In this document: piece after piece, positions 32,771-54,221 of the stretch
Position numbering within the stretch: the first letter of the stretch is position 1
Layout of the letters: every line of letters begins with the position of its first letter
DNA from: Clostridia bacterium
Lineage (GTDB): Bacteria > Bacillota > Clostridia > Peptostreptococcales > Anaerovoracaceae
Assembly: GCA_902363595.1 (NCBI GenBank)
Contig: CABJAP010000003.1
Span: 124,001 to 188,000 of the forward strand
Length of the DNA stretch: 64,000 bases
Direction of reading: 5' to 3'
Translations under genes and position numbers: made by a program
The notes under the pieces: generated by a model
Told to the model about the DNA's origin: nothing
Seen by the model: only the letters and a program-made list of their open reading frames with translations
The model's database searches: none

Positions 32771-33127
32771 TTACAGCACTTCCAGCCTCTCCAAAACCCG
32801 CACAAAATATCCGCTGGCAAACAATTCTTCCAAATGCCCGCCCAAGAACCGATCAAAGCGAACATGAGCAGTCACGATCTTGCGCAGAAACTCCAAGTCG
32901 GCCTGATCCAAAAGGGCCGGATCGGTGATGTCCTTTAAATCCGCTATCCAGCTCCCATAATCGAACTCAGCCACAAAGCCGGTTACATCCAGCGCCGTCA
33001 AAAAGCTGCGGTAAATCGTATTTTCATATATGTCCTGCATGTCTTCTGTATGCAGATTCATTTGCAGCGGAGCCAGATAAGCCAGCAGCTCCTCTTTCCT
33101 CGTTCTATCAAATTCAAGAATATCCAT
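32771..33127 (-). CDS. DUF6508-like protein
   Basis: A 118-residue cytoplasmic protein. The segment DLEFLRKIVTAHVRFDRFLGGHLEELFASGYFVRVLERL matches my memory of the DUF6508 C-terminus, and FDYGSWIADLKDI fits its central part (shown here only as description). No function is known for the family. It starts behind AAGGAGG that overlaps the end of the macro-ADP-ribosyltransferase gene (4 bp gap), so the two are translationally linked. A modulator or immunity role toward the transferase is possible but unproven. Confidence 0.6.
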   Translation of the reverse strand: MDILEFDRTRKEELLAYLAPLQMNLHTEDMQDIYENTIYRSFLTALDVTGFVAEFDYGSWIADLKDITDPALLDQADLEFLRKIVTAHVRFDRFLGGHLEELFASGYFVRVLERLEVL

Positions 33128-33131
33128 ATTG

Positions 33132-34283
33132 TTACCTCCTTAACGCCTGCTCAACTTCATCCGCCGTGTATAAACGATAATTGCTCTCTTTTGTCACATC
33201 CTTCACAAGATACTGCATACGATCCGCAAAGAGCACCTCCTTCTCATTGGGGTAAATGGACAGCTTCTCAATGACAACACCAAAGAGCGATTGGAATTGA
33301 AAACGGTAGGGCGCGCCATAGTAAAACCCGCCGGGCGAATAGCTGGTGCTGGTGTATGCTGCGTTTACTACCTTATTACCCTTTTCGTTCTCTTTCTCCC
33401 GTTCCGGCGTCATGGTCTTTTCACCTCGGTAGACTTTCCCCGCAAAGACGGCCATATTCATAAGGCCGGTATCGATCGCTTCAATAAGCGGCAGCATTTT
33501 CTTGTAGACGTCATGGTACTTCTCCTTTTCCCTGAGAGTTCCATTGATGGTCCTGAAATAATTGCTCGAATACACACAGATGGCAAAAGCCTCTCGATAC
33601 GTCAGTCCTGGCGGAAGTTCTTTTTTACCGATGGTGCTGGCCGCCTGGGCGGCATAATAACTGTAGCTGTCCGGTAAATCCAGATGTTCCAGGTCGCCGT
33701 AGGCAGCGCTCAATTGGTCGAAGCGAGCCTTCAGGCTGTCTACAGATGCCTTATTGTGATACAACGTGATCTTAATCTCGGAAAACGGAAAAGCCACGCC
33801 GCACCAGTGGTAAGCTGCGTAAAACAGCATATCCATAACCTCCATTTCATCCGCACCGGCGCAGCCTGTGCAAACCAGCGGCAGTGCAACGCATATGGGC
33901 GTTTTATCGCTGCCCTGTGCCTTTTTAACAGCGGAAAACAACGTGCTTACCATGTCATAGGCGCTGGCCACACCAGCAGGTTCGTACACAGCAATCCGCC
34001 GAAAAGCCGCTCCGGAAACATCTTTGCTCACCCAGCAGGGAAAATCCGTGCGATAATCCGCCAGCTTGTCCTTCGCCAGATCAGCGACGGAAATCCCCTT
34101 TTTGAAAAGCGCCTGAATCAGCGATCCTCCTGTAGGCGAATAATCATTGGGAAAGGCCGACACACCCAAATAATCCACCTGATCTTCCGCCGTCAGCGCA
34201 GACAGATCACCGCTGACCAAGCTGACCTTTCGTTTTTCAGTCCCATAAAAGACCTCTGTCTGTTTTAATAGTGTTAATGTCAT
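33132..34283 (-). CDS. Macro-like domain + ADP-ribosyltransferase fusion
   Basis: A 383-residue two-domain protein. Residues about 10-180 look like a macro-type ADP-ribose-binding fold (VSLVSGDLSAL, VDYLGVSAFPNDYSPTGGSL, ICVALPLVCTGCAG). Residues about 225-383 have the order of an arginine-type (R-S-E) ADP-ribosyltransferase: VYRGEK near 286 for the NAD arginine, AYTSTSYSPGG near 312 for the STS strand, and NEKEVLF near 347 for the E-x-E pair. So the visible catalytic residues are intact. It would transfer or sense ADP-ribose; target unknown. The ATG at 34281-34283 has AAAGGAGAG 9 nt upstream. No signal peptide. Confidence 0.72.
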   Translation of the reverse strand: MTLTLLKQTEVFYGTEKRKVSLVSGDLSALTAEDQVDYLGVSAFPNDYSPTGGSLIQALFKKGISVADLAKDKLADYRTDFPCWVSKDVSGAAFRRIAVYEPAGVASAYDMVSTLFSAVKKAQGSDKTPICVALPLVCTGCAGADEMEVMDMLFYAAYHWCGVAFPFSEIKITLYHNKASVDSLKARFDQLSAAYGDLEHLDLPDSYSYYAAQAASTIGKKELPPGLTYREAFAICVYSSNYFRTINGTLREKEKYHDVYKKMLPLIEAIDTGLMNMAVFAGKVYRGEKTMTPEREKENEKGNKVVNAAYTSTSYSPGGFYYGAPYRFQFQSLFGVVIEKLSIYPNEKEVLFADRMQYLVKDVTKESNYRLYTADEVEQALRR

Positions 34284-34631
34284 AAGCTCATACTCTCCTT
34301 TCATAAAAGTACACATTATTGATACAACATCCGGCTATATTCAGCAGCGGGCAAGTCTCAAAAAAGAAGAATTGGGAGAATGGATACAAAAAAATCAAAA
34401 GTAACTTTTTTTTGTATCTTTTTATCAGGATTGGCGGCCTTAATCCAGCGCTTTTCCCATTCCTTTCCCCAATATCCACTTACAACTGCAAAACGTTGCC
34501 TGCAACCCTTGAAATTTGATACAAAAACTTAATTATCAAAATTTTTATAATAAAAATGCCCATTCGACTAATTTCAACCCGCCACAGCCAATACTACACA
34601 GTTACTGCCTCTCACCTCCTGCCTCATAAAA
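34284..34631. other. AT-rich 348-bp gap with long hairpin and recurring GATACAA
   Basis: No gene is evident. The stretch is AT-rich between GC-rich neighbours. A long perfect dyad, GATACAAAAAAA and TTTTTTTTGTATC (34383-34418), surrounds an 11-nt loop and has T-runs on both strands, so it could terminate the giant-gene transcript or act as an operator. The word GATACAA occurs four times in either orientation (about 34319, 34384, 34412, 34517). The promoter of the macro-ADP-ribosyltransferase gene should lie here, but I cannot place it. Confidence 0.45.
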
Positions 34632-37600
34632 CTACAAATCAAATACAATCTCGTCGATTTCCATCAGCACCGCGCCGGCAGCTTCATCCGCTTCGGCCGC
34701 CGGGTATTGGCGCAGTGTCAGCTTCACATGGCAAAGACCCTTTCCTGCGATCCCTTTATCCTGCCAGCTTTTCTCCCCATGGCGGAAAAAAGCTTCTGCC
34801 GTATCCGGCGTCAGTACATGGGGAATCCGTCTGGCTAAGGGCCGGAAAAGTAGCGGTCCGTCCGTTCCACCTGCCCTCTGCCCCAAGCCCAAGAGCAGCT
34901 CTGTGCGAAGCCCTTTCGCATATCCGACCGTTTCGCCCACAAAGGCCAGCGCCCGCTCCACCGACCAGCTTCCTGCCGCGATCCGCTCCGAAAAGCGCAA
35001 AGCCGGGTAAAGCAGCTCGGAAAAGCCTATGGGCGCAGTCTCATAAATAAACTCCGGCCGCACCGTAAGCGGTTCCGTTTCCCCAGACATGGCGGAGAAT
35101 ACCTCATTTCGCTTCAAATAAAGGCTGCAGCTCATCGCCTGCCACGTTTTTAAAGCGATCTTCCGAAACTGTACCTGGAGCTGGAAAATGTCCGCAGGTC
35201 CGATCCGCACGTTATCTTTTTCAATGGAATACGTCATGGTATTCGGATCCGCCTCACAGACGCAGCTTTGCTGTTCACGGTCCGTTATTACCAGCGTGGG
35301 AAGCGGGATCCCCTGCGGGATATGGTGCTCCGTGATCCGGATCCGGCGCAAAAGCCCTTCCTCATACTCAGCGGCCAGCACCATCCCAGACTCAATACTT
35401 TTCCCCATGAACGTCTTTCCCCAGCAGCTGCAAATAACGAGCGACTGCTTTCGAAAATCCTCCAGTACATCTGTCAGCGGATATTCCCGGGCTTCTCCAA
35501 AAAGCAGCTCCTCGTACTCATCTTCATTGAAGATAAACTGCGCCAAAGCGGAGTAAAGGTCAGAGCCGGAATTCCCAGCTTTCATCTCTTCTGCCTCTGT
35601 ATGAGTCAAGACATGGAGACGGTCCTGGGATGATAAGGCGCATTCCGTTGCCAGCTCATATTGCCAAGCCGGATTTTTATAATCGCATCCCGAGGCGGCC
35701 GCCTGCTGACCGAGAAGGCGCGGCGCGCTGGGATAACGCCTTAAAGGCACAGGCAGCACGACCGGCCTTGCATCCTCATAGCGGCTCAGGTCCACCTGCA
35801 CGTATTCCCCAAATTGTTCAAAGGGCTGGAGAAAACGATACCAGGTCTGCTCCTCCCGGTCCTCCAGATGAGTGAAAACATAGGCGGCCTGTTCCATGGA
35901 AATGGAGTCCGCAGCAGCGGGATCCGCAGGATCCGCTACAAAAGTCCCATAGCTGCAATCCGTAAATTTACAGCCCAAAACGCCATGTGCGTTTTTAAGG
36001 CTTCCGTCCAGAGCATAGCGCTGCCCCAAAGACTGGGAAACCGGATAGGCCGCACAGCCCGACGCCCCATAGCCACGCCCCAAATCCTTTTCCAGATAAT
36101 CTCTTAAAGCCTCAGAAGCAGCCTGGTTTGCCTCGGAATCCCCGCCTGCAAACAGGCTTTCCGTACGGCGTGCGATGGTCTGCGCCAGCTGCCGTTTCAC
36201 TTCCAACAGCTCGTCAACCTGCTCGGTCACATCTTCGGCAAACAAACAGCTCAGCGCCTGGGGAGCCAGCAGCCGCTCAAAGAATCCCAGAAAACGAGCC
36301 GCCCACAGATCCAAATCAATCTGGTAATAGCTGACCGTTTCCCCGCTTTCCAATCCTGACAACCGCTGGGCTACCGTCGTAAGCTCCATGCCGCTTCTGC
36401 TCATCAAATGCACACTGAGAGGCGGAATACTGTAAAACAAACTTCGCAGATTCCCCGGTGCAGCACAGAGGGTATGCTTGGGGAAGAACGCCCCATAAAG
36501 CCCCTCGCCCAGCATCAGCTTTCCCCCGGGAACGCTGGCCTCAAAGGCAGCGCAGGAAGCTTCCAGGTTTTTATCAGGCTGGATTTTACAAGGTATTTCC
36601 CATGCCTCCGCAAGTCCTGCCGCTGCGTAACGTTGATCCCGCTTCACCGCAGCCGTGACCGCCACAGGCAGACAAAGCAGCGATTGCGGCGATTCCGGCA
36701 CCGGGCATACAAAGGAAAAGGCCAGCTTCACGTCCATGGGGCGCAGTTCTTTTTGCCCTTCCTTCAAATATTGGTATAGCTGCAGCAAATAACCGGTCAC
36801 CGCCTCCTTCTGCGCTTTGGTAAAGGTCTGGGATGCCGCCTCATATTCTCCAAAAGAAAGCCGCAAAGAAAAGGCCGTGTCCGCGCAGCTGTATTGATAA
36901 TAGGCCCGGGCCGTCTGCTCTAAGATTCCCTGCACGGTTTGCGGCTCCGGCTCTGCGGCGCAGCGCAGACAGAGTTCTACCTGCAAAGCACGATGCTCCG
37001 CCGCGTCTTTAAAACAATAGGAAGCCTGAGTCGACGGCAGCTCAGTCAGAGCAAATAGCCGGTCATGATAGAGAATGGCAAAAGGCTCTTTCATGCGGTA
37101 ATCGTCCCCGGCCGCCGTCCGGTTCCCGGCAATATCCCGAAAACCGAAGCTCAGCTCCGCTTTTTGGATCGAAGCCGGAGCGTCCGGATCGTAATCCGTG
37201 GGGAGCACCCTGGTATAAGGGTTCGGCTCTGCCAAAGGTAAAGCTTGCGGCTCCCCATTTGGCTTAAGGCTGAAAACATGCGTATAATAGCTTTCTCCCT
37301 CTGCAAGCCCTTCTGTTTCCTGCGGCGTAATGGGCGGAGAATCCTCTCCGTCCAGCCGGTAAACAAACTGTCCATAGACCGTGTCCATCTGCTTTAAGGT
37401 AAAGGAGAAACCGTACTCATTGGGTTTTACTCGCTGAAGAGACTTCATTGGCAGCTCTTGGTTATCAATGATGGGAACTTCATCCGATCCCACTGTACCG
37501 GCCCCGAGGCATATGACAGGGGCGTCCGGCGCATCTTCCGTTTCAATCAAGAGGTTGATGACCGCATGGCCGTTATCCTCAAATAACTCCGTAGGCAGCG

Positions 37601-40600
37601 GCTTTTTTCCGATTCCAATATAGTGCCCCTCTCCTCCGATGAGCGCCATGTGGTTTAAAAGCTTCAAGGCCTCCTGCAAGTTATCAAAGGAAACGCAGTT
37701 ATGATCCTCTGTCCCGTTACGATCTAGCGCCACCGGTGCAGTGGTAATTTCCGACAAATTCCGGCGGATCAGAACCAGATCCGACTGATCGTCCTCGTCC
37801 ATAGAGTAAGCCCCGGCCGGCCTTGTTTCTGAGGTATTTTTCAGTTCCCGGGAAAACAGCAGACGAGTCTTTTGCAGCGCGGCGGTTCCCTTTGCCAAAG
37901 CTTGCAGCTGCGCCCTGGACTCTTCATCCACCGATACAATGGAATAAACCATATCCGTATCCCTGGCCTTGCGAATCTCCAGGCGAAGTAAAAAACAGCG
38001 GCAGTAGGACAGGGAATCCTCCTTCTTGAAATCGCAGGATTCAGCCTCGCCGCCCACACGGATATCCAGATGGGCCAGCCGGCTGAGATCGACGGGTGCT
38101 CTCCATAGGGAGAAAACCGGCTTATCCTCCTGATAAACATCCTGCTGGTCGTGGAGCAGGATGGGGCAATGCTCCTTAGAATAAAACGGCAGCAGCGACG
38201 GCTCCTTCTGAAATTGGATGTTCAGCGGGTTTTGCGGATACTTCAAATCCGCCTCCGCGATCTCAATGGTCAAATCTTCACTGTAAGCCGCATTGAGAAG
38301 CGGCCCGCCCACAGACTGCTGCACATGGAGCCTGTGAACAATACATTCCGCCGCCCTGCCCGCAGGAACAAGGCCGGTGAATTGCTGAAAGGCTGCTTCA
38401 TAAAGGGGCATCCCCTCCGGCCTTGGGCCGCTCAAAAGAAAGCGGGAAACCATGCCGGATACAGCATCTGCCTGTCCCCGTATCCCATCTGTCAGTTCAC
38501 TGCAAAGCACTTCCTCCCTGCCCTGCTCCTGCATCCAGGATAAGCCCCTCTGCAGTCCGGTTTTGGTGATCAGCAGAAAGTATTCACAAAACAGCTCTGC
38601 CGCGTATTCCTGCCGGCTCAAATCAAAGGAAAGGCTGCTGTAGCTTTGGTCCTCCTCAAGGGTTTCCCAGATCAGTGTCAGGATCGGCGGCAGCGGCATC
38701 GGAACATGATCGGCCTCCCCGCCGCAAGCCTCCTCCATTGCGGCTTTACGGCTGTCGGTCACAGAAAAGGCCGCTTTTTCAAACAAAAATCGAAGATTGA
38801 GCCGCAAAAGCTCACACAGATTTTCCGCTGCAAAACCGGAGCACCCAGCCTCAAGGACGGAGAGCAGCTCCTTTAACTGTCCCTGGCTGATGGAGTCCAT
38901 CTGCGGCCGCTTCTGTGCTCCCAGCGCAAAACCGCAGAGAAGGTCCAAAAGATCGGTGATGGAGCCGCGCTCATAGGATGCCAGTATGGCAATCCGATGT
39001 TTTTCCCCATTGCTTCCCGCTCCTTGAAGGAGCATCGCCTCCTCCTGCGACGCCATGCGGCTCCAGACAGCCCGCCGCTCGTCCTTTGTAAAATAGGGGA
39101 GCAGCCACACTTCCAGGTCGCAGATCTCCGGCAGTATCTGCCCCGGTGTCCAGTCGTAGGAAAGCGCCTCTTCATCCAATAGCAGAAATTCTTCCTGCCA
39201 GGGAACCGGCGAAGGGCTTCCCAGCACAAAGGTATCCCGGTATGTATAAGAAAACTCGAAGGAGATTTTAAAAATCCAGATTTTGATATAAGCGCTCACC
39301 TCAAAGGATGCCTCCAGCGCCACCTCGGTCGCCTTCCCCGACTCCAAAAGCGCCGTGACCGCAACCCTGGCGTAGAGCCTGAATCCGGCTTTGATGATGA
39401 AAAAATCGATTTCACCGGCAATTTCTCCGGCAATAATCACGGTACCCCGGCACCGATAATAAGTGGCCGTCACCTTTCCGTCCGCCGACACAAAGCGGGC
39501 AAAGACGCCTTCAAAGATCCCGGAGAGCTCCAGAGAGGCGGAAAGCTTTAGAATCCCAAGGGACAGCCGCTTTCCCACACCGACGGTGATGCCAATGCCC
39601 AGTTCAATGACCGGATCAAAATAGCCTTTTTTAGTATCCGGCGCGTTGGCGGACGTATCCCCGTTCAAATAACCAAAGTAGAAGCCTCCCCTGCCATAAA
39701 AAATCCCGTAGGACAGGGCAAAAGAAAGGGAAAAATCGTCGTTTTCCGGGAAACCGAAATTGATCTTGAAATTTCCGTTGGTGTAAACCCAGACCTCGAT
39801 GCTGGGGAGGGTAACCGATAAGGCTCCAAAATCCATGTTGCGAATGCAGTCGGGAAGGGTAACATTGGCATAAAACACACCGATGTCCTCAGTCACCTTG
39901 CGGTAATAAATGGTCAGATCCAGCCCTTTAAGCGGTACCAGATCGTTATTCAGCACCTTTGCCTGGATTCCGTACAGCACCGGATCATAAAACAGAATTC
40001 CTGCTTCCAAAAACTCCAGCACCGTAAACCTGGCTCCCACAAACCAGCCGTAGGAGTCGTCGTAAATCTTAGTCGGCAGCTCAGCCGTTTCCTTCACATG
40101 CTCCCGGCATATATCCAGAAGGGCAAAGAGGCTCTGATCCGCCGCGCCCTGCAGCCCCAGATCGATGTGCCTGCCAAGGCCAAAATATTTCAGCTCAAAC
40201 TTCTTTTTCTCCTGAGCCGATACCGGGCCGGGAGCGGAATCGTGAAAAGCATCCCAAAGATAATAAGCCCCGCCGCTATCCAGCATTCGGCCGCCGCTGG
40301 CCTCAATGGGAAGAATCGAATCATATTTAACAAGAATATGGAATTTGGCTTCCTTGTCGCCCTCCCGCTTAACGTAGGTAAATCCCACCTCCTGAATCTG
40401 CAGAATCAACAGATCGATATCCATCGGCAGGGTCACGGAAATATCTCTGGTCGCCGTATCGAAAAGAATGTGGATTTCCGGAAAGCCGATGCGGTTTAAA
40501 AGATCCCACGGCTTTTGCAGCTTAAAATTCACATTGGGCCGCAAAACCCGCATCAAGGCCCGCAGGATTCCTCCGATGGTGAAATTTTTTAACAGAATTG

Positions 40601-42836: not shown

Positions 42837-42860
42837 TTGGTCACCTCATTTCGACCATCC

Positions 42861-44177
42861 TTACAGAATCTGGCTGATTACACTGTTAAAGACTCCGTTT
42901 TCCACCTCGCTGATCAGGCTGTAAAACTGATGGTCTGCAGCCGGCAGATTGGTAATGCGGAACGCTCCGCCTTTCGCAGAGGTGTAAGACACCAGCGGCT
43001 TGGAAAACGGCGGGTCCGGAGGCCGTGGCTGGGTGCGGGTGATGATCGTATGGGCCGTATAGGCCGCCTTTGTGCTGTCAATCGTAAAAAGGCCGTAGCT
43101 GGGAAATCCCCCTGCGGGTGCCGGTATGGGCACGCCGCCTCCATCCAGCCGGACCCGAAAGCCAAAATTCTCATGGTTCGCCGCGGCATCGGCGTGGGCT
43201 GAAAAAATATCGAAAACATCCATGTTGGGGTGTGAAAAGCGTTTGGCATTGTAATGGGCGCTGGCAAAAACATGGGTAGCCGCTACCGTATCCGCAAAAG
43301 TAGTCGCCTGGGCCAGCTGGTCTGCCAGCGTATCGCGATTGGTCATCTTACCATCGGGGCAGGCGGTTCTCACCGCCCCATGGTGGGGCAGCATGAGCAC
43401 TTTTTTTGCAGCGTTGAGGAATGTATACTTGGCGCTAAATTTATCCAGCCGCTTATTCATGTAAGCGAAGGTGTCATCCGTAGCATCTCCCGTAAACAGG
43501 AACGCGAAATGTCCTCCCTGGGGATGTATGTATTCAGCGACGATCACCGCCGAATTTCCATTGATATAAAGGTCATCGCCGTTCTTAAGGGCAGGCAGGC
43601 TGCGATTTGCCAGAATCCGAAACCGCAGTTCGTCTTGATTGCCGGTTGTCCCTTTAAAGTCCAGAAAATTGCAATCCTTTTGCACGTATCCGTCGATAAC
43701 GGAAAAAATTCGGATATTGTTGCAGATCTTTTTCAAAGCGACCGCCATTTTCCTCGCAATGGACGAAAGGCCCGCCACACCGGCTCCCCCTGTAAAAACG
43801 TTTTTTTTCGCATTGAATTTCTTAGCTGTCCCTCCGATGAGCACCGTCCCGATCCGCTGCAGAGGGCCGTCCTGGCGTTCGCCTGTAAGCCTGATGATCT
43901 TGTTAATGTGGTCCTGGTCCAGATGGCTCAAAACCAGCGCTGACAAAGCGCCGTTGTTCTGCCTTATTTTACGTTCGATATAATCAAGGGCAATGGGCCT
44001 GTCCGGTTCGTTTGGCGCATGGGCCGGTTTACCGTCTTTGCCAAAGGTGCCGCAGTCGATGAGGACCAGGCCCTTGAACACCGGGTTGGCTGCCGTGGCG
44101 TCAGCTTTGTTTTCGTAAACCTCCACCAGATTGGACATTCCCTGGCCGATATAAAGTCCGGTCACTTTAATATACAT
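42861..44177 (-). CDS. Soluble ComEC-type metallo-beta-lactamase-fold hydrolase
   Basis: A 438-residue protein. After the first strands (LYIGQGMSNLVEV, LVLIDCGTFG) comes the metal motif SHLDQDHI (about residue 85), then LFTGDATDD (about 229) and LMLPHHGAVRT (about 264). The HxDxDH, GD and HHG order is that of the nuclease-like domain of ComEC/Rec2, but here it has no membrane part. A C-terminal stretch of about 150 residues contains PRPPDPPF and a small beta domain. The ATG at 44175-44177 overlaps the end of the 1041-aa gene by 11 bp and follows AGGAGG, so translation is coupled. Probable phosphodiesterase or nuclease within the island system. Confidence 0.8.
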   Translation of the reverse strand: MYIKVTGLYIGQGMSNLVEVYENKADATAANPVFKGLVLIDCGTFGKDGKPAHAPNEPDRPIALDYIERKIRQNNGALSALVLSHLDQDHINKIIRLTGERQDGPLQRIGTVLIGGTAKKFNAKKNVFTGGAGVAGLSSIARKMAVALKKICNNIRIFSVIDGYVQKDCNFLDFKGTTGNQDELRFRILANRSLPALKNGDDLYINGNSAVIVAEYIHPQGGHFAFLFTGDATDDTFAYMNKRLDKFSAKYTFLNAAKKVLMLPHHGAVRTACPDGKMTNRDTLADQLAQATTFADTVAATHVFASAHYNAKRFSHPNMDVFDIFSAHADAAANHENFGFRVRLDGGGVPIPAPAGGFPSYGLFTIDSTKAAYTAHTIITRTQPRPPDPPFSKPLVSYTSAKGGAFRITNLPAADHQFYSLISEVENGVFNSVISQIL

Positions 44178-47100
44178 GGTTCTTCTCGCCCTCCTTTTCA
44201 TACGCCGCGTACCACCCCAGCTTGCCGTCCCTGTTGGGTCCGGGAAAAAGATAAATATCATTATTGCCGCTGGGAAAAGTATATTTGAGAAACTTCAGGG
44301 AAAAATCCCGGAAATGGAGATAAAATTCACCGGCTGCAGAACGTTTCAGCTCCACAGCATCAAAACCGAGGGACAAGATGCCTTCCAGCGGGACCATGCC
44401 GCTGACACCCTGAAAATTGCCCAGCTTTGCTCCGATGTACCCGCTGGCCGTCCCGGTGGTGACACCGCCGTCTCCCTGACGATCCACCGCTCCCACGCTC
44501 CAGGCCGTCAAAAGGGAAAGCTTTAAATTGCTGGCTGTCGACAAAGCGCCCAAGTCGCCCAGATCGATCTGCCAGCAGACCGCAGACCAAGTATCCGCAA
44601 GGGCTTCCTGATGGATACCGTCTGCCTGAATCCCCGCATAGCCCAGAGACTCCGGCGTAACGCCCGCCGAACCGGTGAGAAAATCCGTCACATGGATCGG
44701 AAACTGCTCTGCCAGCGATCCGGCTCTGGGCACGCTGTTCTCATAATGGTATTTCATGGTACCCGTGTGAACGGCGATGCTACCCTTTTTCTCCAACAAA
44801 AGCAGATCGGAAAAGACCAGGCCGGTATCCTCCTTTCCGCTTTCTGTTTCCATCGCCTTGGGATCCGGCTTAGGGTCTCCGTAGCTCAGCACATCGGAAT
44901 CCAGCAGCACGAATTTCAGCCGCCCTGCCAGGAAAAAGGAGGCCCGCTCTTCTGCCGCCGAGGAGGTCAGGGTAACCTTGTCCACGCAAAGACCACTGTA
45001 GAACGCATTGTCTGTAAAATACTCGATCCGCTCCGCAAGCTCAAATAAATAATCGCTGACTCCCGGCGCGTCCTGATTCTCTGCCATTCTACCTGTAACA
45101 ATCATATAATTTCCGCAGGACCCACCCACCGCGAATAGGGGGGAGCCGAGAAAATATTGCAGTGTCAGCGAGAGGCGGCAGGAAAAATCAAAGACCTGGG
45201 ACTGACGGAATACAACCTGCAGCTGGTCCAGCTTGTAATAAAACTCCCAGGGTTCTGTCAAAATCGGATGCTCCGGGTCTTCATAAGCGATGATCCCGCT
45301 GATCTGACCCGGGCTTAAAATGCCTTTTTCGTCCAGACTTCTGCTCTCGAAGATCATGTGATGGGCCAGCAGCTTCCCGCCCTCCCGCAGGCGCAGCAAG
45401 AATTTCAAATTATCCGGCAGCTGATTTCCTTCCACGGGAACGGAAAAAGCGATGGTCCCGCACCATAGCGGGTCCTCTAAAATGGCCCGAAGATCGTCGA
45501 AGGCGGCATTTTCCTTATCAACCTCGTCCAGCTCCTTGAGGATCGCCTGCAGAGATGCGGCTCCCTTTCCCCTCAAATCTCCGGTATCGGGCGGATAAGA
45601 CCATTCGGCGGGAGCATCAGCAAGGGCCCGTATGGATTTATGGGAGGTGTATTTTAAAAGCAAGAAGGTCTGATTATCCTTCCAACCAGCGCTATCCAGA
45701 GAAAAGGTCCAGCCGTCGAGGGAAAGAGGCGGTGATTCCGGCATGACCGAGGCGTATTTGGAAAATTCCTCTGGGTTATCAATAACCAAAAAAGCATGGG
45801 AAGCCAAAAGCGCCTGCTTCAAAAACCCGGAAACCTTGGCAAAACGGAACTTCTCACAGAATTCCAGCGTGTCAAAGTAATCCTTCCCCGGTGTCTGCGT
45901 GAGATAAAGCCCCTTGGTGCTCAAAACCTTCATTGCCTCTCCCATTCCATCCAAAGACAGCGGCCGCGCGCCTAACAGCCGGTTTCGGAGAGCCGCCAGC
46001 CGCCGTTCATCGAGGGCTTTCATCGCATCATACGCCTGCTGCTTTTTTGCCGCCCCGTGCTGCCCGCCGGATGTTCCCACAGGGAGAAGGGGGAAACAAT
46101 CGTCCTTTCCGATCTTCTGAAAGGGAATCTCCGCATAATCCAGGACCCCCGCCTCATTGCTCATGGCATAAAAAGCGCAGTCCTGAGCCTGGGAATAATA
46201 GGTTCCCTTTTCCAAAGCAACGTAAGCCGTATCGCCGCTGGGCAGGCCGGACGCAAAAGACTGCTCTTGCAGCGGAAAATAAGCCTGTTTGCCGCTGATG
46301 AAAAAGAGACGGCTGTCCGCCTCAAAGTCCACATACTCCTGGCCGCTGAGACCCGCGCACAGACTGCCCGCCGGACTTTTTATGGTAAAAGCGCCGTCAA
46401 AGGTCAGATAATACCGGTACGAGGGCAGCTTAACCTCCGTCCTTCTTCTGGAAAAGACCAGCTTTGCCTCCCGTTCTTCCGTCTCCAGCTCCAGGTTCTC
46501 AGGTGATAGATAGATTGGAAAATTAGTGCGCCATCGGCCTTTGGGGAGCCAGAAAAAGCTGCGTTCTTTATCCAGCGGATTCAGCACATCCAACCGGACC
46601 TCCAGCTCTGTGATCGGAAAATCCGGTTCCAGCACCTGGTCAAAGAAAGCATCGATTTCCCGCCCGCGGGCAGGTGCTTCTCTCTGCAAGCCGTACCAGA
46701 TTCCGGCCCGCAGGCTCTCCATGGTAATCGCCCCGGCCGCAGCGAAGGAAAAGCATCCCGCGCTTTGTCCTTCCATCAGCAGCAGACAGCGCTCCATTCG
46801 GCACGCCAGGCCGCCGTCCCGCAAAAACTCCGCTCCATAATCGGCCCCGCCGGATCCCGGCGCAGCAGCGCTGATCTGGAGCTGCTCGTCGCCGTCCTGC
46901 CCGGCCAATACGGAAAGGAAGCTGTTCTTTTTCAGTTCCAGAGCATACTCGCCAATGAAAAAGGTTACGCTTTTTCCCAGACTAAAAACACCGCCGGCCG
47001 CCCCAGGCTTCAGGGGCAGCCGCTGCCAGTTTTCCCTCGGCAAAATGTCCTTTTCTATGAAAACCAGAAAGCAGCCCGGCTGCTCTGTCCCATGAACATC

Positions 47101-47292
47101 TAAAGCCTCTTTCAGTTTTTTTAATGCCTCTTTTTCCACCGGCCGCCCGGTAAAGACCAGCACAAAATCCGTCTTATGAAACCCGTCGGTAAGGGAAAGG
47201 GGCTGTCCCTGTCTGGTGTGGAAAAATACTTTATCCCCGCAGCTGTCATGGGCATAAAGATAAGCTTCTCCTGTCTCCTTCCACTGGCACAT
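44167..47292 (-). CDS. 1041-residue beta-rich protein, unknown function
   Basis: No recognisable family. The N-terminal about 110 residues look like a small alpha/beta domain (TDFVLVFTGRPVEKEAL), then a long series of beta segments. Sections from about 690 onward (LDQLQVVFRQSQVFDFSCRL, VTGRMAENQDAPGVSDYLF, GRLKFVLLDSDVLSYGDP, and the closing EFYLHFRDFSLKFLKYTFPSG) have the rhythm of the strands in the giant protein downstream. No signal peptide or membrane span. Overlaps the next gene by 11 bp and starts 8 bp after the previous stop, so it belongs to the same transcript. Probably a structural partner of the giant protein. Confidence 0.7.
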   Translation of the reverse strand: MCQWKETGEAYLYAHDSCGDKVFFHTRQGQPLSLTDGFHKTDFVLVFTGRPVEKEALKKLKEALDVHGTEQPGCFLVFIEKDILPRENWQRLPLKPGAAGGVFSLGKSVTFFIGEYALELKKNSFLSVLAGQDGDEQLQISAAAPGSGGADYGAEFLRDGGLACRMERCLLLMEGQSAGCFSFAAAGAITMESLRAGIWYGLQREAPARGREIDAFFDQVLEPDFPITELEVRLDVLNPLDKERSFFWLPKGRWRTNFPIYLSPENLELETEEREAKLVFSRRRTEVKLPSYRYYLTFDGAFTIKSPAGSLCAGLSGQEYVDFEADSRLFFISGKQAYFPLQEQSFASGLPSGDTAYVALEKGTYYSQAQDCAFYAMSNEAGVLDYAEIPFQKIGKDDCFPLLPVGTSGGQHGAAKKQQAYDAMKALDERRLAALRNRLLGARPLSLDGMGEAMKVLSTKGLYLTQTPGKDYFDTLEFCEKFRFAKVSGFLKQALLASHAFLVIDNPEEFSKYASVMPESPPLSLDGWTFSLDSAGWKDNQTFLLLKYTSHKSIRALADAPAEWSYPPDTGDLRGKGAASLQAILKELDEVDKENAAFDDLRAILEDPLWCGTIAFSVPVEGNQLPDNLKFLLRLREGGKLLAHHMIFESRSLDEKGILSPGQISGIIAYEDPEHPILTEPWEFYYKLDQLQVVFRQSQVFDFSCRLSLTLQYFLGSPLFAVGGSCGNYMIVTGRMAENQDAPGVSDYLFELAERIEYFTDNAFYSGLCVDKVTLTSSAAEERASFFLAGRLKFVLLDSDVLSYGDPKPDPKAMETESGKEDTGLVFSDLLLLEKKGSIAVHTGTMKYHYENSVPRAGSLAEQFPIHVTDFLTGSAGVTPESLGYAGIQADGIHQEALADTWSAVCWQIDLGDLGALSTASNLKLSLLTAWSVGAVDRQGDGGVTTGTASGYIGAKLGNFQGVSGMVPLEGILSLGFDAVELKRSAAGEFYLHFRDFSLKFLKYTFPSGNNDIYLFPGPNRDGKLGWYAAYEKEGEKNHVY

Positions 47293-47300
47293 CTCATCAC

Positions 47301-49553
47301 CTACTTCCAGCTTATTACATCACCGGGATACAAATAAAAGTCGCCGCTCCAGCTTCCTGTCATGTGGAACGTATACACCGGCAGACCACACCGGTAAACA
47401 GCCGGCTCCTGCCGCGGCTCCAAAAGTCCGGTCAGCGGCGCAAGATCGCAGAGGGTACTGCCCAGTGGCATCTGATGGAGAAAGCCATTGACGGTGACCG
47501 GCATACATGGCGTAAGCTGGGTCCTGCCCCGCAGATAAACAGCCGATGCTCCCGATTCTGGCACCCCGGTCTTACGGAAAGCGGAAAGATTTGCTGCCAA
47601 AGCCTTGTAGCTGGAAGCGGACAGAACCGCGGGATTTTTACATACCTGGGGAGCCCCCTCTTTTTCAGCAGATGGGAAATGATCCGGGTAGAGAATGCCC
47701 GCGTATTCCCTGGCGATTCCGCAAGCGTTCAAATCCGTAACGCTTCCGCCGCCAAAGGCGCACAGACCGCTTTCCATGGTTGGCTGCTCTAAGTCTTCTA
47801 CATAGTCCCCTTCCGAAAGCAGGGTGACAAATGGATCCAGGCAAAGCTTGCCTTTTTTCCGGCTGACGGGCGCGTATTTGGTGCCGGTTCCCGTATAGCC
47901 GTTGACATACAAGGCCGCCCCCGTATCCCCCACATACTGGTAGGTTTGCTGGTCCGCCTTTATGGTCAGCCCAGGAAACAGCTCCACGAAATTGTTATCC
48001 AAGTGACCGTGGTAATATAAAAATTCCTCCATGGACTGGGGAAGATAGTCCTCTGCCAGGCCGCGGACAGCGAGAATCTGCCCAGCCGTAAAAGCCTTTT
48101 CCTCCATCTCAATTAAAAACCCTTGAAAGTCCTCTTTAATCGCCTGGCGCACGGCTTTATCGGAAAAGTCCCATGCCTCCTTAGCGATTTCTAGGACGTA
48201 ACCGCTGTCTTTGGATAAAAGCTTAAAATAGGTTTTTGAAAGCTCGGTCTTGATCCCCAGCCCGCTATCCAGGGCAACGGTGATCGCCCCGCTCTGGTCC
48301 AAATTCGGTGTCTGGCTTTTGCAGATGCAGGGGGACGCATCACCGAAGAGATAAAAGGCCGGATGAAGTCTGTTTTGGGCCGGGCAGGCCTTCCCCTGGG
48401 AAATGCCGCTGGTATAGGAAAAAGCCACCGGGCTGCCTGTATCCAAGGGCAGAGATACCAGCTCCTCCCCTCCCTTTAGGTCCGGTGAAAGGGCATATGT
48501 TTTCTCCTTGGCAGCAGCTGCCATGCCATGGGGAAAGCCGCAGTTTCTTCGGAAATGGAAGCAAATCGTATCCGCTGCCGTGTAATGGCATTTTACCGGC
48601 TCCGGTACAGAAAGCAGCAGCCTTACCGGCATGGAGGGCAGGGATAGAACCTGATCTTTTTCAACCTGAAATCGAACAAAAAAGCCGCCCTCTGTTCCGA
48701 CAGAAAAAGCGCCCTGAGGTATGGAAATGGTGTAGCTCCCGTCAGCCAGAGCGTCGACTTTGGCCTTGCTCCACAAAAGCGTGCTTCCCGCGTACAGAAA
48801 GACCGCCAGCTTTCCGCCTTTCCAAAACCCGCCGGGAGCGGAAAGGGAAAAGGAGCGCTCTGCGGCCGTATCCGCTGTCGCCTCCAGGCTGGTAAATTCA
48901 GGCCGGGGCAGATGCACTGCGCAGAAGTCCGCAGGCTGGTAATGAACCTTGGTTTTCTCAATCCGGTTTTCCGCTCCCAGAGTTAAGGTATAGTCTTCCA
49001 ATGCCGGCAATCCGTGCTCCTTAAAACGGATTTGGCATGCATATGGGACCAGCTCTACTGTTTTTTGAATAGACTGTTCGGTATTTGTCAGGGAAACCTG
49101 CACCAGATCGGTGATCATGCCGGGAAAGGCGTAATCTACTTCGATAGCTGCATCCTTTAACACCCGTACCTGATTTAACTGAACCGGCGCTGTGGAAAAT
49201 ACGGGAATTTTCTTGTACGCCGCCGGGTTGTCAGAAGGCGCCACACCGATATAATACTGGGCGTCATCGGATACGGTTCTCGTAATGGTGCCGGAGGTTC
49301 CTGTCACCGCAACTGTTTCACCTACCAGTTCTTCATAGCGAAACACAGCCAGCTGGTAAGTAGTCACCCCCTTTTGCGGGCTCCAGAACACCTGGTAGGA
49401 CCCTTCGGTGCCTGCGATCTTGCACAAAATCTTTGTTATATCAGGAGGCAGAGCCGGATCGCTGACCGCTCCATTCCCTTCGTCCGTGCCATCGCCCCAA
49501 TCTAATCTTACCGCTTGGTCATCGTAATTTTGGTCCGCTTTTACTTTTTCCAT
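47301..49553 (-). CDS. 750-residue protein with fibronectin-III-like repeats
   Basis: No signal peptide. Residues about 35-115, 120-205 and 215-310 look like three fibronectin-III-like beta sandwiches (YQVFWSPQKGVTTYQLAVFR is the clearest edge strand). A cysteine-containing middle follows, then a C-terminal region with SMEEFLYYHGHLDNNFVEL, GLTIKADQQTYQYVG and YVNGYTGTGTKYAPVSRKKG. Unusually many cysteines (CHYTAADTICFHFRRNC, CICKS) for a cytoplasmic-looking protein. The start overlaps the Hint gene by 13 bp with AGGAG 9 nt upstream. Likely an adhesive or assembly component of the island system; function unknown. Confidence 0.72.
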   Translation of the reverse strand: MEKVKADQNYDDQAVRLDWGDGTDEGNGAVSDPALPPDITKILCKIAGTEGSYQVFWSPQKGVTTYQLAVFRYEELVGETVAVTGTSGTITRTVSDDAQYYIGVAPSDNPAAYKKIPVFSTAPVQLNQVRVLKDAAIEVDYAFPGMITDLVQVSLTNTEQSIQKTVELVPYACQIRFKEHGLPALEDYTLTLGAENRIEKTKVHYQPADFCAVHLPRPEFTSLEATADTAAERSFSLSAPGGFWKGGKLAVFLYAGSTLLWSKAKVDALADGSYTISIPQGAFSVGTEGGFFVRFQVEKDQVLSLPSMPVRLLLSVPEPVKCHYTAADTICFHFRRNCGFPHGMAAAAKEKTYALSPDLKGGEELVSLPLDTGSPVAFSYTSGISQGKACPAQNRLHPAFYLFGDASPCICKSQTPNLDQSGAITVALDSGLGIKTELSKTYFKLLSKDSGYVLEIAKEAWDFSDKAVRQAIKEDFQGFLIEMEEKAFTAGQILAVRGLAEDYLPQSMEEFLYYHGHLDNNFVELFPGLTIKADQQTYQYVGDTGAALYVNGYTGTGTKYAPVSRKKGKLCLDPFVTLLSEGDYVEDLEQPTMESGLCAFGGGSVTDLNACGIAREYAGILYPDHFPSAEKEGAPQVCKNPAVLSASSYKALAANLSAFRKTGVPESGASAVYLRGRTQLTPCMPVTVNGFLHQMPLGSTLCDLAPLTGLLEPRQEPAVYRCGLPVYTFHMTGSWSGDFYLYPGDVISWK

Positions 49554-51295
49554 AAGATCACACTCCTGTCCGGTCCGCGAAAATATCGTTCTACTGCGGC
49601 TACATCGGTTTCCCAGCTCACTGGGAGGCCGTTTTCTTGCCGCTTTTCTTCAAGGTCCAGTTCCGCAGCGTATCCCTGCATCTGGTTATCGCCCACAGCC
49701 AGACCATTGGCGTAAAACACGCCTTTCTCCACTGGGATCCGCTCTCCGTTTGCAGATTCCAACTCCAGATTGTACACCGTATTATCATCCACCACGGCCA
49801 ATTCCAGGGAACGGATGGGGACAAATTCTCCGTCCTGCCGCTTGAGACGCTGATGGAAGGCCACGTTTCCATGATCATCAATATAGGACTTTATGCGCAG
49901 CAGGGCGCGGACCCCCTGGTCGGTGATCAGCGGGTGCTCCCCGGTAAGAGAAAGCTCCATAGCTTTTTCGCCATCCTTGCCCGCTGTCAGCTTGTAAACG
50001 CCCTTCCGTTCCGTTCCTGTGACCAACTCCCGGACACGCAGCGGGCCGCCGTCCGAATACACCAGGTCGCCCGCTTTCATATTCTGAATCTTTTTCACCG
50101 ACTGATCGGCCATTGTAATCAAGGTGTCCCGGCAAAGGCAGCCCCAGTATAGTTTGATGGGTGCGATCGGTTTATCTTCCCCCTCAGGGATTTCTCCGGT
50201 ATAGACCATCATGTGATAAACGTCCTCGGATCCGGCCACCTGATAGCTGACCGTAAGCTGATAGTCCGCCTCCAGAATTTCCATGATCGGCAGCGGATTT
50301 TTGGCCTGCCAGCGGGCGTTCTTAAAGTCCCACTGAAAGCCCGGAAGTTTAGTATCAGGATCAATATAGATGGAGAAAAACTGGGAAAAATCTTTATCCG
50401 GCTCGTTTTCAAAGGCAGCCAGTCCGCCTCCGCTCTTGCGTACCAGGGAAAGGGTTGAAGAAGATCCGGGGCTCCAGACACTCAGGGCTTTCACGAAGCG
50501 CTGATTCTTATCCGCAAAGACCGCCTGCCCCCGGCTGGGTATGTAAAAATCACCCTGCGTATAATAGAGCAGATAATCATACGCTTCCAAAGAACTGGGC
50601 GCCCTATCATAGCAGACAATAATAAACTCATCCTGCTTTTCCGCCTGTTCATGTTTTTTCACCGGATCCAGCACATGGATCTTGGAAAGCATGTCAAAGT
50701 TTTCGGCAAAGGAAGCAAATTCCAGGGTCTTTACCTTGAATCGTAAAATGTCGTCCTGACCGATAAAACAAGCCGTCATGAGGATCCCTCCAGGCTCTTT
50801 CAAAAGGGATTTTGGCGAAATCTCCAGCCAGGCGTCGACATTTTGTTCCGCAGGAAAGGAAAAAGAAGGAATTCCTTCTTCGATAAGAACCGGTATTCCT
50901 TCCTCCAAGGCATAGTAATCCACTTCCAGCGCCATCTCCCAGATGGGATGGACAGCTGTAGCGCCGGCAGCGATCCGGTAGTTTCCTGCTTTCTGCTCCA
51001 CGTTCTTTACAAAAATCCCGTCTGACCAGCCGTCTGACAGGTCGTCCCCCGTCACCCGGCGCAGGCCTTTTTCTCTGGCGATTGCACCAGTACGCTCCAT
51101 ACAGGAAACAGTGCATGGAAAGTTTTCCTTTTTCATGCCAGCAAAAAAATCCCGCATATATTGGGCGTGGCTCTCCTCCAGCGGTGATAGATAGCACGCT
51201 CCGTCCGATGCAGAGCGGGCGAGACGGATGATTTTTTCTTTGCGGGCAAGCTGCTGCGGTGTGCTTTTCAGTAATTGCTGATTTTTGATAAGCAT
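49541..51295 (-). CDS. Hint-domain (hedgehog/intein) protein
   Basis: A 584-residue protein. Residues 1-380 are unrecognised beta-rich sequence. A Hint domain follows at about 384-540: the nucleophile block GCLCRDTLITMADQSVKKI, MKAGDLVY, the block-B LSLTGEHPLIT with its histidine, and the end FYANGLAVGDNQMQG. The C-terminal His-Asn plus nucleophile needed for splicing is absent, so cleavage at the first cysteine rather than protein splicing is expected. A 45-residue tail follows. No homing endonuclease. AAAGGAGG 6 nt before the ATG. First gene behind the island promoter, so it may be the most abundant product; self-cleavage would release a 42-kDa N-terminal part. Confidence 0.8.
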   Translation of the reverse strand: MLIKNQQLLKSTPQQLARKEKIIRLARSASDGACYLSPLEESHAQYMRDFFAGMKKENFPCTVSCMERTGAIAREKGLRRVTGDDLSDGWSDGIFVKNVEQKAGNYRIAAGATAVHPIWEMALEVDYYALEEGIPVLIEEGIPSFSFPAEQNVDAWLEISPKSLLKEPGGILMTACFIGQDDILRFKVKTLEFASFAENFDMLSKIHVLDPVKKHEQAEKQDEFIIVCYDRAPSSLEAYDYLLYYTQGDFYIPSRGQAVFADKNQRFVKALSVWSPGSSSTLSLVRKSGGGLAAFENEPDKDFSQFFSIYIDPDTKLPGFQWDFKNARWQAKNPLPIMEILEADYQLTVSYQVAGSEDVYHMMVYTGEIPEGEDKPIAPIKLYWGCLCRDTLITMADQSVKKIQNMKAGDLVYSDGGPLRVRELVTGTERKGVYKLTAGKDGEKAMELSLTGEHPLITDQGVRALLRIKSYIDDHGNVAFHQRLKRQDGEFVPIRSLELAVVDDNTVYNLELESANGERIPVEKGVFYANGLAVGDNQMQGYAAELDLEEKRQENGLPVSWETDVAAVERYFRGPDRSVILWKK

Positions 51296-51324: not shown

Positions 51325-51353
51325 AGTCTATTCTTTTGAGCAAAAATTGTCAA
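51325..51353 (-). promoter_or_regulatory. Candidate promoter of the giant-gene island
   Basis: On the minus strand a consensus TTGACA (51348-51353), 17-nt spacer and TAGACT (51325-51330), 30 bp before the Hint gene start. A second, poorer pair (TTGACG with TAGAAT, 19-nt spacing) lies just upstream. The remaining space to 51504 has no gene. Confidence 0.55.
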
Positions 51354-51590: not shown

Positions 51591-54221
51591 CTATTTTTCA
51601 GCTTTCACTGCTGCCTGTGCGGCTGCCAGCCGTGCAATTGGCACTCGGAACGGGGAGCAGGATACATACTGAAGTCCGATGTTGTGGCAGAACTCGATGG
51701 ATTTTGGATCTCCGCCGTGTTCGCCGCAGATGCCCAGCTTAATGTTGGGTCTGGTGGCTTTACCCTTTTCAACCGCCATCTTCACCAGCTGGCCTACGCC
51801 GACCTGGTCGATGGACTGGAACGGATCATCGTCAAAGATGCCCTTGTCTCTGTATTCCCGAATGATCTGGCCCGTATCGTCTCTGGAGAAACCAAAGGTC
51901 ATCTGTGTCAAGTCATTGGTACCGAAGGAGAAGAATTCCGCTTCTTCTGCGATTTCGTCAGCTGTCAGAGCTGCTCTTGGGATTTCAATCATGGTTCCGA
52001 TCAGGTAATCGAATTTCACGCCTTCCCGTTCCATAACCTTTTCTACTGTCTGAACAACAGTTGCTTTGACGTCAGCCAGTTCTTTCTTCAGGCCTACCAG
52101 CGGAATCATGATTTCCGGAACAATATCCAGGCCCTGTTCTTTTCTTACTTCGATGGCTGCCATGATGATGGCTTCCGCCTGCATCTCGGCAATTTCCGGA
52201 TAAGTAACGGCAAGACGGCATCCACGGTGTCCCAGCATTGGGTTGAACTCGTGGAGTTCTTCTGTCTTTTTCGCCAATTTTTCATATGGAACATTGATCT
52301 GGGCAGACAGCTGTTTGATTTCTTCGTCTGTATGAGGCAGGAACTCGTGAAGCGGCGGATCCAGCAGACGGATCGTTACCGGTCTGTCACCCATTGCTTC
52401 ATAAATGCCCTTGAAGTCGCTCTTCTGATAAGGCAGCAGGAAGGACAAAGCTTCTCTTCTTTCTTCTTCCGAGTCTGCCAGGATCATTCTTCTTACAGCC
52501 GGAATACGTTCTTCTTCAAAGAACATATGCTCAGTTCTGCACAGTCCAATTCCTTCTGCCCCAAAATCAACGGCCTGTTTGGCATCTCTCGGGTTGTCAG
52601 CATTGGTTCTGATTTTCAGGGTTCTGATTTCATCGGCCCACTGCATAATCGTGCCAAAGTCGCCGGACAGTTCTGGCGGAACCGTCTTGATCTGGCCTTT
52701 CAGTACTTCGCCGGCCGTACCGTCCAGAGAAATGTAGTCGCCTTCTTTGAACACGTCTGATCCGATGGTCAATGTTTTTGCTTCTTCATCTACTTTGATT
52801 TCCGCGCATCCTGATACGCAGCATTTTCCCATGCCTCTGGCAACGACGGCCGCATGAGAAGTCATACCGCCTCTTGCAGTAAGGATACCTTCTGCTGCAA
52901 CCATGCCAGCCAGGTCTTCCGGAGAAGTTTCCAGTCTTACTAAGACCGCAGGATTACCGTTTTCTACAGCAGCTACCGCATCGGCAGCATTGAAGTAAAT
53001 CTTTCCTGTAGCAGCGCCCGGGGATGCGGGAAGTCCTTTGGTCAGTCTTTCTGCAGCAGCCAGCTCTGCGTCATCGAATTTCGGGTGGAGCAACTGGTCG
53101 ATCATAGCCGGTTCCAGTCGGGTAACAGCCGTTTTCTTGTCGATCAGACCTTCTTTTTCCATGTCTACGGCAATCTTTACCGCAGCTGCAGCTGTCCGCT
53201 TACCGTTTCTTGTCTGAAGCATGAATAGTTTATTTCTTTCAACGGTGAATTCCATATCCTGCATGTCTGTATAATGCTTTTCCAACAGTTCTGAAATTCT
53301 TGTGAATTCTTTATAGACTTCCGGGAAAGCTTCCGCCATCTCTGCGATCGGCTGCGGGGTACGGATACCGGCTACTACGTCTTCGCCCTGGGCGTTTACC
53401 AGGAATTCGCCGAAGAGTTTCTTTTCGCCGTTGGCCGGGTTTCTTGTGAAAGCAACGCCGGTGCCGGATGTATCTCCCATATTGCCGAATACCATAGACT
53501 GTACATTTACTGCAGTACCGATGCTGCCCGGGATGTCGTTGAGCTGTCTGTAAAGGATAGCTCTTTCGTTATTCCAAGAACGGAATACGGCCATAACCGC
53601 TTCCATCAGTTGATCCTTCGGCTCCTGCGGAAAGTTTCTTCCCATTTCTTCTTTTACTAATTTTTTATAATTGACAATGATGTCCTGCAAATGTTCGGTC
53701 GTCAGGTCCACGTCAAATTCGCAGCCTTCCTTTTCCTTCTTGGAATCGAAAATGGCATCAAACTTTGTTTTTGGAATTTCCATGACAACATCGCCGAACA
53801 TCTGGATGAATCTTCTGTAGCTGTCATAAGCAAATCTCGGATTTTCAGTCAGCTTTGCCAGTCCTTCAACCGTGTTGTCGTTGAGACCAAGATTGAGGAT
53901 GGTATCCATCATACCAGGCATGGAAATCTTTGCGCCGGAACGAACAGATACCAGCAGCGGATTTTCCACACTGCCGAACTGCTTTCCGGTCACATGTTCA
54001 AGATCGGAAAGTTTCTCAAAGATATCAGCTACGATGTCGTCTGCGATAGTCTGATTTTCTTCATAGTAGCGGTTGCAGGCTTCAGTCGTTACCGTAAATC
54101 CAAACGGTACAGGCAGGCCAATTTTGGTCATTTCCGCAAGATTAGCACCTTTTCCGCCCAACAGGTCTTTCATATCCTTTGAGCCCTCATTGAACGAGTA
54201 AACAAACTTTTTCTTTTCCAC
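51591..54221 (-). CDS. ppdK: Pyruvate, phosphate dikinase
   Basis: An 876-residue enzyme, the usual length, converting pyruvate, ATP and phosphate to PEP, AMP and pyrophosphate (or the reverse in anaerobic glycolysis). N-terminal ATP-grasp part (LLGGKGANLAEM), the phosphohistidine swivel domain with GGMTSHAAVVARGMGK (His about 454), and the C-terminal PEP barrel with GLCRTEHMFF, GTNDLTQMTFG and the catalytic cysteine in LGICGEHGGDP (about 828). GTG start with GGGAG 9 nt upstream, 18 bp after glyQS. Ends in a clear terminator. Confidence 0.97.
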   Translation of the reverse strand: MEKKKFVYSFNEGSKDMKDLLGGKGANLAEMTKIGLPVPFGFTVTTEACNRYYEENQTIADDIVADIFEKLSDLEHVTGKQFGSVENPLLVSVRSGAKISMPGMMDTILNLGLNDNTVEGLAKLTENPRFAYDSYRRFIQMFGDVVMEIPKTKFDAIFDSKKEKEGCEFDVDLTTEHLQDIIVNYKKLVKEEMGRNFPQEPKDQLMEAVMAVFRSWNNERAILYRQLNDIPGSIGTAVNVQSMVFGNMGDTSGTGVAFTRNPANGEKKLFGEFLVNAQGEDVVAGIRTPQPIAEMAEAFPEVYKEFTRISELLEKHYTDMQDMEFTVERNKLFMLQTRNGKRTAAAAVKIAVDMEKEGLIDKKTAVTRLEPAMIDQLLHPKFDDAELAAAERLTKGLPASPGAATGKIYFNAADAVAAVENGNPAVLVRLETSPEDLAGMVAAEGILTARGGMTSHAAVVARGMGKCCVSGCAEIKVDEEAKTLTIGSDVFKEGDYISLDGTAGEVLKGQIKTVPPELSGDFGTIMQWADEIRTLKIRTNADNPRDAKQAVDFGAEGIGLCRTEHMFFEEERIPAVRRMILADSEEERREALSFLLPYQKSDFKGIYEAMGDRPVTIRLLDPPLHEFLPHTDEEIKQLSAQINVPYEKLAKKTEELHEFNPMLGHRGCRLAVTYPEIAEMQAEAIIMAAIEVRKEQGLDIVPEIMIPLVGLKKELADVKATVVQTVEKVMEREGVKFDYLIGTMIEIPRAALTADEIAEEAEFFSFGTNDLTQMTFGFSRDDTGQIIREYRDKGIFDDDPFQSIDQVGVGQLVKMAVEKGKATRPNIKLGICGEHGGDPKSIEFCHNIGLQYVSCSPFRVPIARLAAAQAAVKAEK

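Follow-up and report, generated by a model that had tools for sequence, protein, structure and literature searches.

Five tightly packed genes around a giant protein in a Clostridia bacterium: related loci across bacterial phyla, a putative nuclease and a predicted self-cutting Hint protein

In Hedgehog, the polypeptide is cleaved before a cysteine without splicing. LysM and fn3 are typical modules of cell surfaces. Experiments have shown that the C-terminal MBL domain of ComEC acts as a Mn-dependent DNase (PMC8579336). Nothing was found in the open-access literature on DUF6603 or its Pfam entry PF20248, a family of unknown function. Here, we analysed a 64,000-nucleotide stretch of DNA from a Clostridia bacterium (the window, to which all positions refer), in which a preliminary description had pointed to a possible multi-protein system. 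The genes concerned are giant and costly, they retain the same partners across distant phyla, gut Clostridia included, and no family or paper that we found describes them. Among the matches listed in the open-access literature, which comprises neither subscription papers nor preprints, no description of the system appeared, the papers listed for Ihubacter massiliensis did not deal with this locus as judged from their titles and the openings of their abstracts, and passages of PMC12419801 concern other proteins. The word undescribed is used here in that sense: the system was not found in the open-access literature searched.

Layout and boundaries of the locus

Seven minus-strand ORFs lie where the preliminary description had put them, and the five large ones are, as it said, tightly packed, all junctions being overlaps or gaps of at most 24 bp by ORF coordinates. 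Read from the right, they encode a Hint protein (HINT, 584 aa, 49541-51295), an FnIII-like protein (FN, 750 aa, 47301-49553), MID (1041 aa, 44167-47292), a ComEC-like MBL-fold enzyme (466 aa, 42861-44261, likely start 44177) and GIANT (2734 aa, GTG start, 34632-42836). Along its entire length, this GIANT shares 99% identity (100% in the part searched) with a protein cluster that carries the NCBI name of Ihubacter massiliensis, which places the window in that species or in a strain very near it. The HINT and FN genes overlap by 13 bp, FN and MID are 8 bp apart, MID and MBL overlap (by 11 bp if MBL starts at Met29, position 44177) and 24 bp separate MBL from GIANT. The genes for an ADP-ribosyltransferase (ART, 33132-34316) and a DUF6508 protein (32771-33127) follow after 315 bp and are 4 bp from each other. 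The five genes from HINT to GIANT look like one operon, and the last two like a separate pair.

The right boundary stood as proposed: it consists of a PPDK gene (51591-54221, by Pfam) and, 3′ of it, a 16-pair intrinsic-terminator-like hairpin on the minus strand (51542-51503). Upstream of the operon, one promoter-like site, TTGACA-17-TAGACT, lies on the minus strand at 51325-51353; it is a consensus match only, and the region has no clear excess of such sites (18 versus 13.9, sd 3.8, in shuffles). The mobile-element scar proposed as the left boundary found no backing, the ORF scanned there (31523-31984) having no Pfam match at E ≤ 0.001. Finally, the higher GC content noted by eye was borne out, with a mean of 0.52 in the 1-kb windows from 33001 to 51000 versus 0.44 from 1 to 31000.

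The last two genes had been described as a macro-ADP-ribosyltransferase and a DUF6508 protein belonging to the system. The family names hold for ART (E 2.2e-10, with an ART/XopAI-like C-terminal part) and DUF6508 (E 3.3e-21), but no macro domain was found at E ≤ 1. No ORF in the other 88 loci described below matches either protein, and ART was found in none of eight genomes carrying the system, in a search that had no positive control and is therefore weak. Both are probably not part of the system; they (32771-34316) possibly form a toxin-antidote pair of their own.

The MID-GIANT pair and its relatives

A GIANT profile built from 16 relatives was scanned against the contigs of 84,980 species genomes; of 155 pattern-matching stretches, 92 encode a GIANT relative and 80 were kept. 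With eight further loci from 72,556 plasmid records, this gave 88 related loci, in which whole GIANT genes are mostly about 8-13 kb long. A failure of the genes to co-occur, or their placement in a described system, had been named beforehand as what would refute a multi-protein system; the large genes were found to travel together across phyla. MID adjoins GIANT in 82 of the 88 loci (78 by simple gene calling, four more by plus-strand profile search), the remaining six having less than 2.5 kb of upstream sequence. The two genes are on the same strand in the locus maps, with MID upstream of GIANT in three loci that the plus-strand search resolved (L017, L035, L053), and in L083 they are fused into one reading frame of 3696 codons (L083:6785-17872). 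MID and GIANT are thus neighbours wherever enough sequence is available, and we infer that they would form a two-part beta-sheet scaffold. As to the idea of a multi-protein system as a whole, it keeps the MBL enzyme as a frequent member, was matched to none of the described systems considered, and loses ART and DUF6508.

The predicted structure of MID is mostly beta (pLDDT 86.4) and has no clear fold match; its TM-score with teneurin is 0.06. A basic C-terminal tail like RRLxxGRRTPPV, absent from the MID of the window, ends this protein in ten loci of Chitinophagaceae, Pseudomonas and Rhodanobacteraceae (L020, L021, L024-L030, L088).

The FN profile matches 42 ORFs in 89 sequences, and an FN adjoining MID was recognised in 36 of the 72 loci whose upstream sequence exceeds 1.5 kb, so that FN is either less constant than MID or less well recognised. 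Its FnIII-like assignment stands in part: a Tistrella homologue has a sub-threshold match to fn3 (E 0.0012), and the FN protein of the window has no Pfam match.

The GIANT of the window matches no Pfam family at E ≤ 1, and hence neither the DUF6603 model nor LysM; LysM modules are present in longer GIANT relatives. Two Pseudomonadaceae and two Chitinophagaceae proteins match the GIANT core profile over its first 260 positions alone, and all four are DUF6603 proteins by family search, two of them by Pfam at E 3.7e-133 and 1.5e-142. By hhalign, GIANT residues ~498-700 (40737-41345, minus strand) align with the part preceding the DUF6603 domain at a probability of 98.6 and E 4.8e-16, the second alignment comprising three rows only, two of them 97% identical. 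These profile comparisons support the view that GIANT is distant kin of DUF6603 proteins, related through the repeat that precedes the DUF6603 domain.

We also scanned 17 DUF6603 loci, in which no MID, FN or Hint match was found. An MBL gene lies close by in three and an EEP gene in three (L118, L124, L127 and L101-L103, the DUF6603 gene being downstream); in L102 and L103 it is an MBL gene and directly upstream, and two of the three MBL-bearing loci are near-identical. The other 11, seven of which have more than 4 kb of upstream sequence, have neither gene within 4 kb, and DUF6603 proteins of 1140-1230 aa show no such pairing. The pairing with an MBL or EEP enzyme extends beyond this operon, yet it is far from universal among DUF6603 genes.

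GIANT is rare. It was found in one of 291 genomes of the class sample, the centre genome itself, in three of 198 Pseudomonadaceae and in six of 147 Chitinophagaceae, centres included and two DUF6603 proteins set aside in each family. The titles of the 61 loci in the GIANT tree name ten phyla, and the starred branches require at least 5 changes each for Bacteroidota, Bacillota and Actinomycetota, 6 for Acidobacteriota and 8 for Pseudomonadota. This fits repeated horizontal transfer, although a similar picture can arise from bins, paralogues and long branches. Near-identical systems occur in two MAGs titled Muribaculaceae (L011) and Blautia (L012), which may reflect a recent transfer or a binning error. 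That GIANT relatives are phage structural proteins was not borne out: a tblastn search of 50,697 phage records gave no match, and none of the 2 and 78 pattern matches in viral contigs was confirmed.

The enzyme slot and the Hint protein

Between MID and GIANT lies a slot whose content varies among the 82 loci: MBL in 33 (26 recognised by the [ST]HxDxDH motif and five by the profile alone, with L017 and L035 making up the rest), EEP in 19 (15 with both motifs, four with one), a 500-aa protein in nine, two small proteins in six and nothing in 12; three are unclassified, fused or unexamined (L067, L083, L053). The assignment of the window enzyme as an MBL was upheld by Pfam (E 1.8e-5), and as ComEC-type by the family profile, whose best match is ComEC (E 5e-10). 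Its metal motif HLDQDH spans residues 113-118 (43908-43925, minus strand), and H113, D115, D117, H118, D259, H294 and H344 are invariant in 14 aligned members. For EEP, the best profile match is DNase I (E 3.2e-9); across 13 aligned members, W7, N8, E48, H231, D265, N267, D337, S405 and H407 do not vary and D406 hardly does. Pfam, run on 34 sampled slot or neighbouring proteins, identified 13 as EEP and one as HNH. Judged by family and motifs, the slot enzyme would be a metal-dependent nuclease of the ComEC or DNase I type. Two unrelated folds with a shared chemistry in the same slot point to DNA as the likely substrate.

A different substrate is conceivable for MBL, because its profile also touches the phosphorylcholine esterase CbpE (E 2e-4), and the EEP profile touches sphingomyelinase (E 0.0045). 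These matches could fit a beta groove in GIANT holding a lipid or another hydrophobe, served by a phosphodiesterase whose substrates would be lipids or wall polymers. Moreover, the conserved core of GIANT (residues 745-1214, 39195-40604, minus strand) is made of long amphipathic strands, most of the 32 examined alternating big hydrophobic with small or charged residues, and weak Foldseek matches include LptD, ApoB and MTTP. The TM-scores of these matches are, however, about 0.1, the VIA-align rows are porin-like meanders, and the enzymes match DNase I and ComEC far more strongly. We consider the lipid explanation very unlikely.

The slot enzyme changes slowly. On the GIANT tree, slot type changes four times over 51 rows versus a shuffled mean of 21.9 (11 of 62 rows without an enzyme state being left out), and twice for MBL and EEP alone. 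The enzyme is a steady partner, unlike a fast-swapped toxin cassette.

Several slot proteins have features of their own. In nine Bacteroidota loci (L034, L063, L064, L068, L070, L072, L075, L077, L079), the slot holds a 500-aa protein with invariant GHQ and EG motifs, for which no relative was found in Pfam or the PDB. The two small proteins, of ~138-157 aa, occur in L048, L050, L051, L066, L069 and L087. Many MBL enzymes carry a variable, often Pro/Ala-rich stretch followed by a short terminal motif like R-[LIVF]-[RKQT]-x-[LFIVY], for example in L021, L025, L047, L054, L085 and L088. This end, a motif defined after inspection of the tails, is found in 12 of 43 MBL proteins versus 0.32 expected from shuffles, and in none of 81 MID, 42 FN, 84 GIANT and 11 HINT proteins; a role as a tag for docking or export is conceivable.

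The HINT protein of the window is composed of 385 N-terminal residues, a Hint domain (residues ~386-540, 49676-50140, minus strand) and a short tail. The domain shows Cys386, T-x-x-H454 and a GDN end. The window protein falls below the Pfam cut-off for Hint (E 1.7e-4), but the family profile matches several solved intein/Hint proteins at E 1e-10 to 1e-7. Among 21 Hint proteins compared, the N-terminal Cys and [TS]xxH are kept in all, and the C-terminal site has a variable residue after GD or AD, in place of the intein His-Asn. This residue pattern predicts Hedgehog-like cleavage before the Cys (Cys386 in the window) without splicing. If Hint releases a part, as the preliminary description supposed, what is cut off would be the N-terminal part of the Hint protein, since the Hint domain sits in a protein of its own with a beta-rich part before it and ~45 residues after it.

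Hint is frequently found near the locus. When the Hint alignment was probed in 20 whole genomes chosen from 80 loci, 17 gave a match, which lies within ~3 kb of the upstream locus edge in 13 genomes from four phyla (Sphingomonas, two Chitinophaga, four Pseudomonas, Rhodanobacter, a Peptococcaceae MAG, Breoghania, Dyella, Streptomyces and Rhizobium); a weak match lies elsewhere in four and none was found in three. A Hint ORF is also labelled in seven Bacillota and Fibrobacterota loci (L009-L014 and L022, L011 being titled Muribaculaceae), and in L010 Hint and FN are fused in one ORF. Hint proteins measure 511-614 aa in eight aligned members and, stop to stop, 554-632 aa in 12 of the 13 fetched from genomes; the thirteenth, of 935 aa, has its extra length ahead of the Hint part.

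The preliminary description had reported no signal peptides. By eye, this holds for the window proteins and fails for several relatives: Sec-type signals are present on five of the 13 fetched Hint proteins, four from Pseudomonas and one from Rhodanobacter, signal-peptide-like N-termini on the MBL of four Bacteroidota loci (L032, L071, L076, L084) and on EEP proteins upstream of MID (L033, L036, L055), and a lipoprotein-like N-terminus on the Hint protein of L056. MID and GIANT show no signal peptide: hydrophobic N-terminal windows were found in only one of 78 MID and three of 91 GIANT proteins.

The lack of signal peptides in the window would also fit a cytoplasmic defence against phages or plasmids, in which GIANT and MID would sense or act as a scaffold and the nuclease would destroy invading DNA. 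The sparse and patchy distribution would suit such a role, MBL proteins do occur in defence, and a plasmid locus (L008) adjoins a type III-B CRISPR module. The window MBL weakly matches models for DRT-associated MBL, LmuA, Avs1a and 6A-MBL; its PADLOC matches, at E 3.6e-7 and 9.6e-7, do not make the locus a known anti-phage system. PADLOC has no model at E ≤ 1 for the other six proteins of the locus, Hint, FN, MID and GIANT among them, and Pfam finds no NTPase in the core. Both this and the Sec-type N-termini of Hint, MBL or EEP in several relatives, together with the surface character of LysM and fn3, speak against defence, which we judge unlikely.

LysM in GIANT relatives and an fn3-like partner would also agree with a non-toxic surface or matrix structure, in which a giant adhesive scaffold would attach to walls and process extracellular DNA, either as food or to control biofilms. 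Collagen repeats in five of 59 sampled neighbour proteins (a raw count with no background rate), the lineage-stable enzyme and the lack of a noticed immunity gene are in line with it. It accounts less well for MID and GIANT proteins devoid of Sec-like N-termini, for a scaffold as sparse as the class sample indicates and for a Hint processing step with no clear need. We find this possibility doubtful.

A possible assembly and its closest known systems

Altogether, we favour, with a probability of roughly 40%, a single extracytoplasmic assembly composed of a MID-GIANT scaffold, a slot nuclease, Hint maturation and FN/LysM tethering. The five genes would encode one assembly, in which MID and GIANT may form the two-part beta-sheet scaffold, and the gene between them would supply a metal-dependent nuclease of the ComEC or DNase I type. 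The Hint protein may cut itself before Cys386, so that its N-terminal part would be freed or transferred, and FN, plus LysM in longer GIANT forms, could attach the whole assembly to cell walls or to surfaces. Outside the cytoplasm, the assembly would carry or display a DNase directed at free DNA or at other cells.

Several lines of evidence argue for this nuclease-bearing assembly. First, the constancy of the MID-GIANT pair and the MID-GIANT and Hint-FN fusions point to one assembly. Second, the profile matches of MBL to ComEC and of EEP to DNase I, with their invariant residues, suggest a nuclease in the slot. Third, the Sec-like N-termini of Hint, MBL and EEP and the LysM modules of GIANT relatives are consistent with action outside the cytoplasm. 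The slot enzymes of 33 (MBL) and 19 (EEP) loci, the Hint gene near the locus in 13 of 20 genomes, the Cys and [TS]xxH kept in all 21 Hint proteins and the MBL or EEP genes by six of 17 DUF6603 loci also speak for it. We count against it that 30 of the 82 loci have neither MBL nor EEP in the slot, that MID and GIANT have no signal peptide and no conserved immunity gene was noticed, that the enzyme type changes only four times, unlike a swapped toxin cassette, and that 11 of the 17 DUF6603 loci show neither MBL nor EEP within 4 kb, the window GIANT lacks LysM and the MBL profile touches CbpE. We propose more tentatively that these loci represent a horizontally spread class of giant beta-scaffolds, kin of DUF6603, that would release or display a DNase of interchangeable fold and mature by Hedgehog-like Hint cleavage, which might constitute a new secreted DNA-attacking system present in about ten phyla. 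Delivery or display of a DNase would make the assembly a new kind of bacterial machine.

The locus was not matched to any of the described systems that we considered. It does not look like a polymorphic toxin locus, there being no variable toxin domain in the ~45 residues after Hint and no rapid exchange of toxin type; no conserved downstream immunity gene was noticed in the locus maps. No sheath, tube, baseplate or AAA+ gene of contractile injection systems (eCIS, T6SS) is among the families listed for sampled genes, one listing giving the best 25 of 79, and the five operon proteins have no RHS or Tc Pfam match at E ≤ 1 that would indicate Tc/Rhs-type shells.

Its parts do have known counterparts. 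The Hint domain resembles Hedgehog-type and PT-HINT domains by its N-terminal Cys, its [TS]xxH and its end lacking His-Asn, with a weak PT-HINT match in one member; it differs in that no toxin domain follows and the releasable part would be the N-terminal module. MBL shares the SHxDxDH metal motif with the C-terminal domain of ComEC, which is its best profile match, but it is a soluble stand-alone protein encoded beside a giant scaffold, with no channel domain seen. Likewise, EEP resembles DNase I and other EEP nucleases in profile and conserved residues, and differs in being encoded between MID and GIANT. Finally, GIANT is not itself a member of DUF6603, failing its model and having MID beside it, the homology being distant and confined to the preceding repeat. 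DUF6603 proteins are likewise large, they carry the homologous repeat ahead of their domain, and in six of the 17 loci scanned their gene has an MBL or EEP neighbour. If our reading is correct, DUF6603 would gain a testable context as a beta giant partly paired with an MBL or DNase-I-like enzyme.
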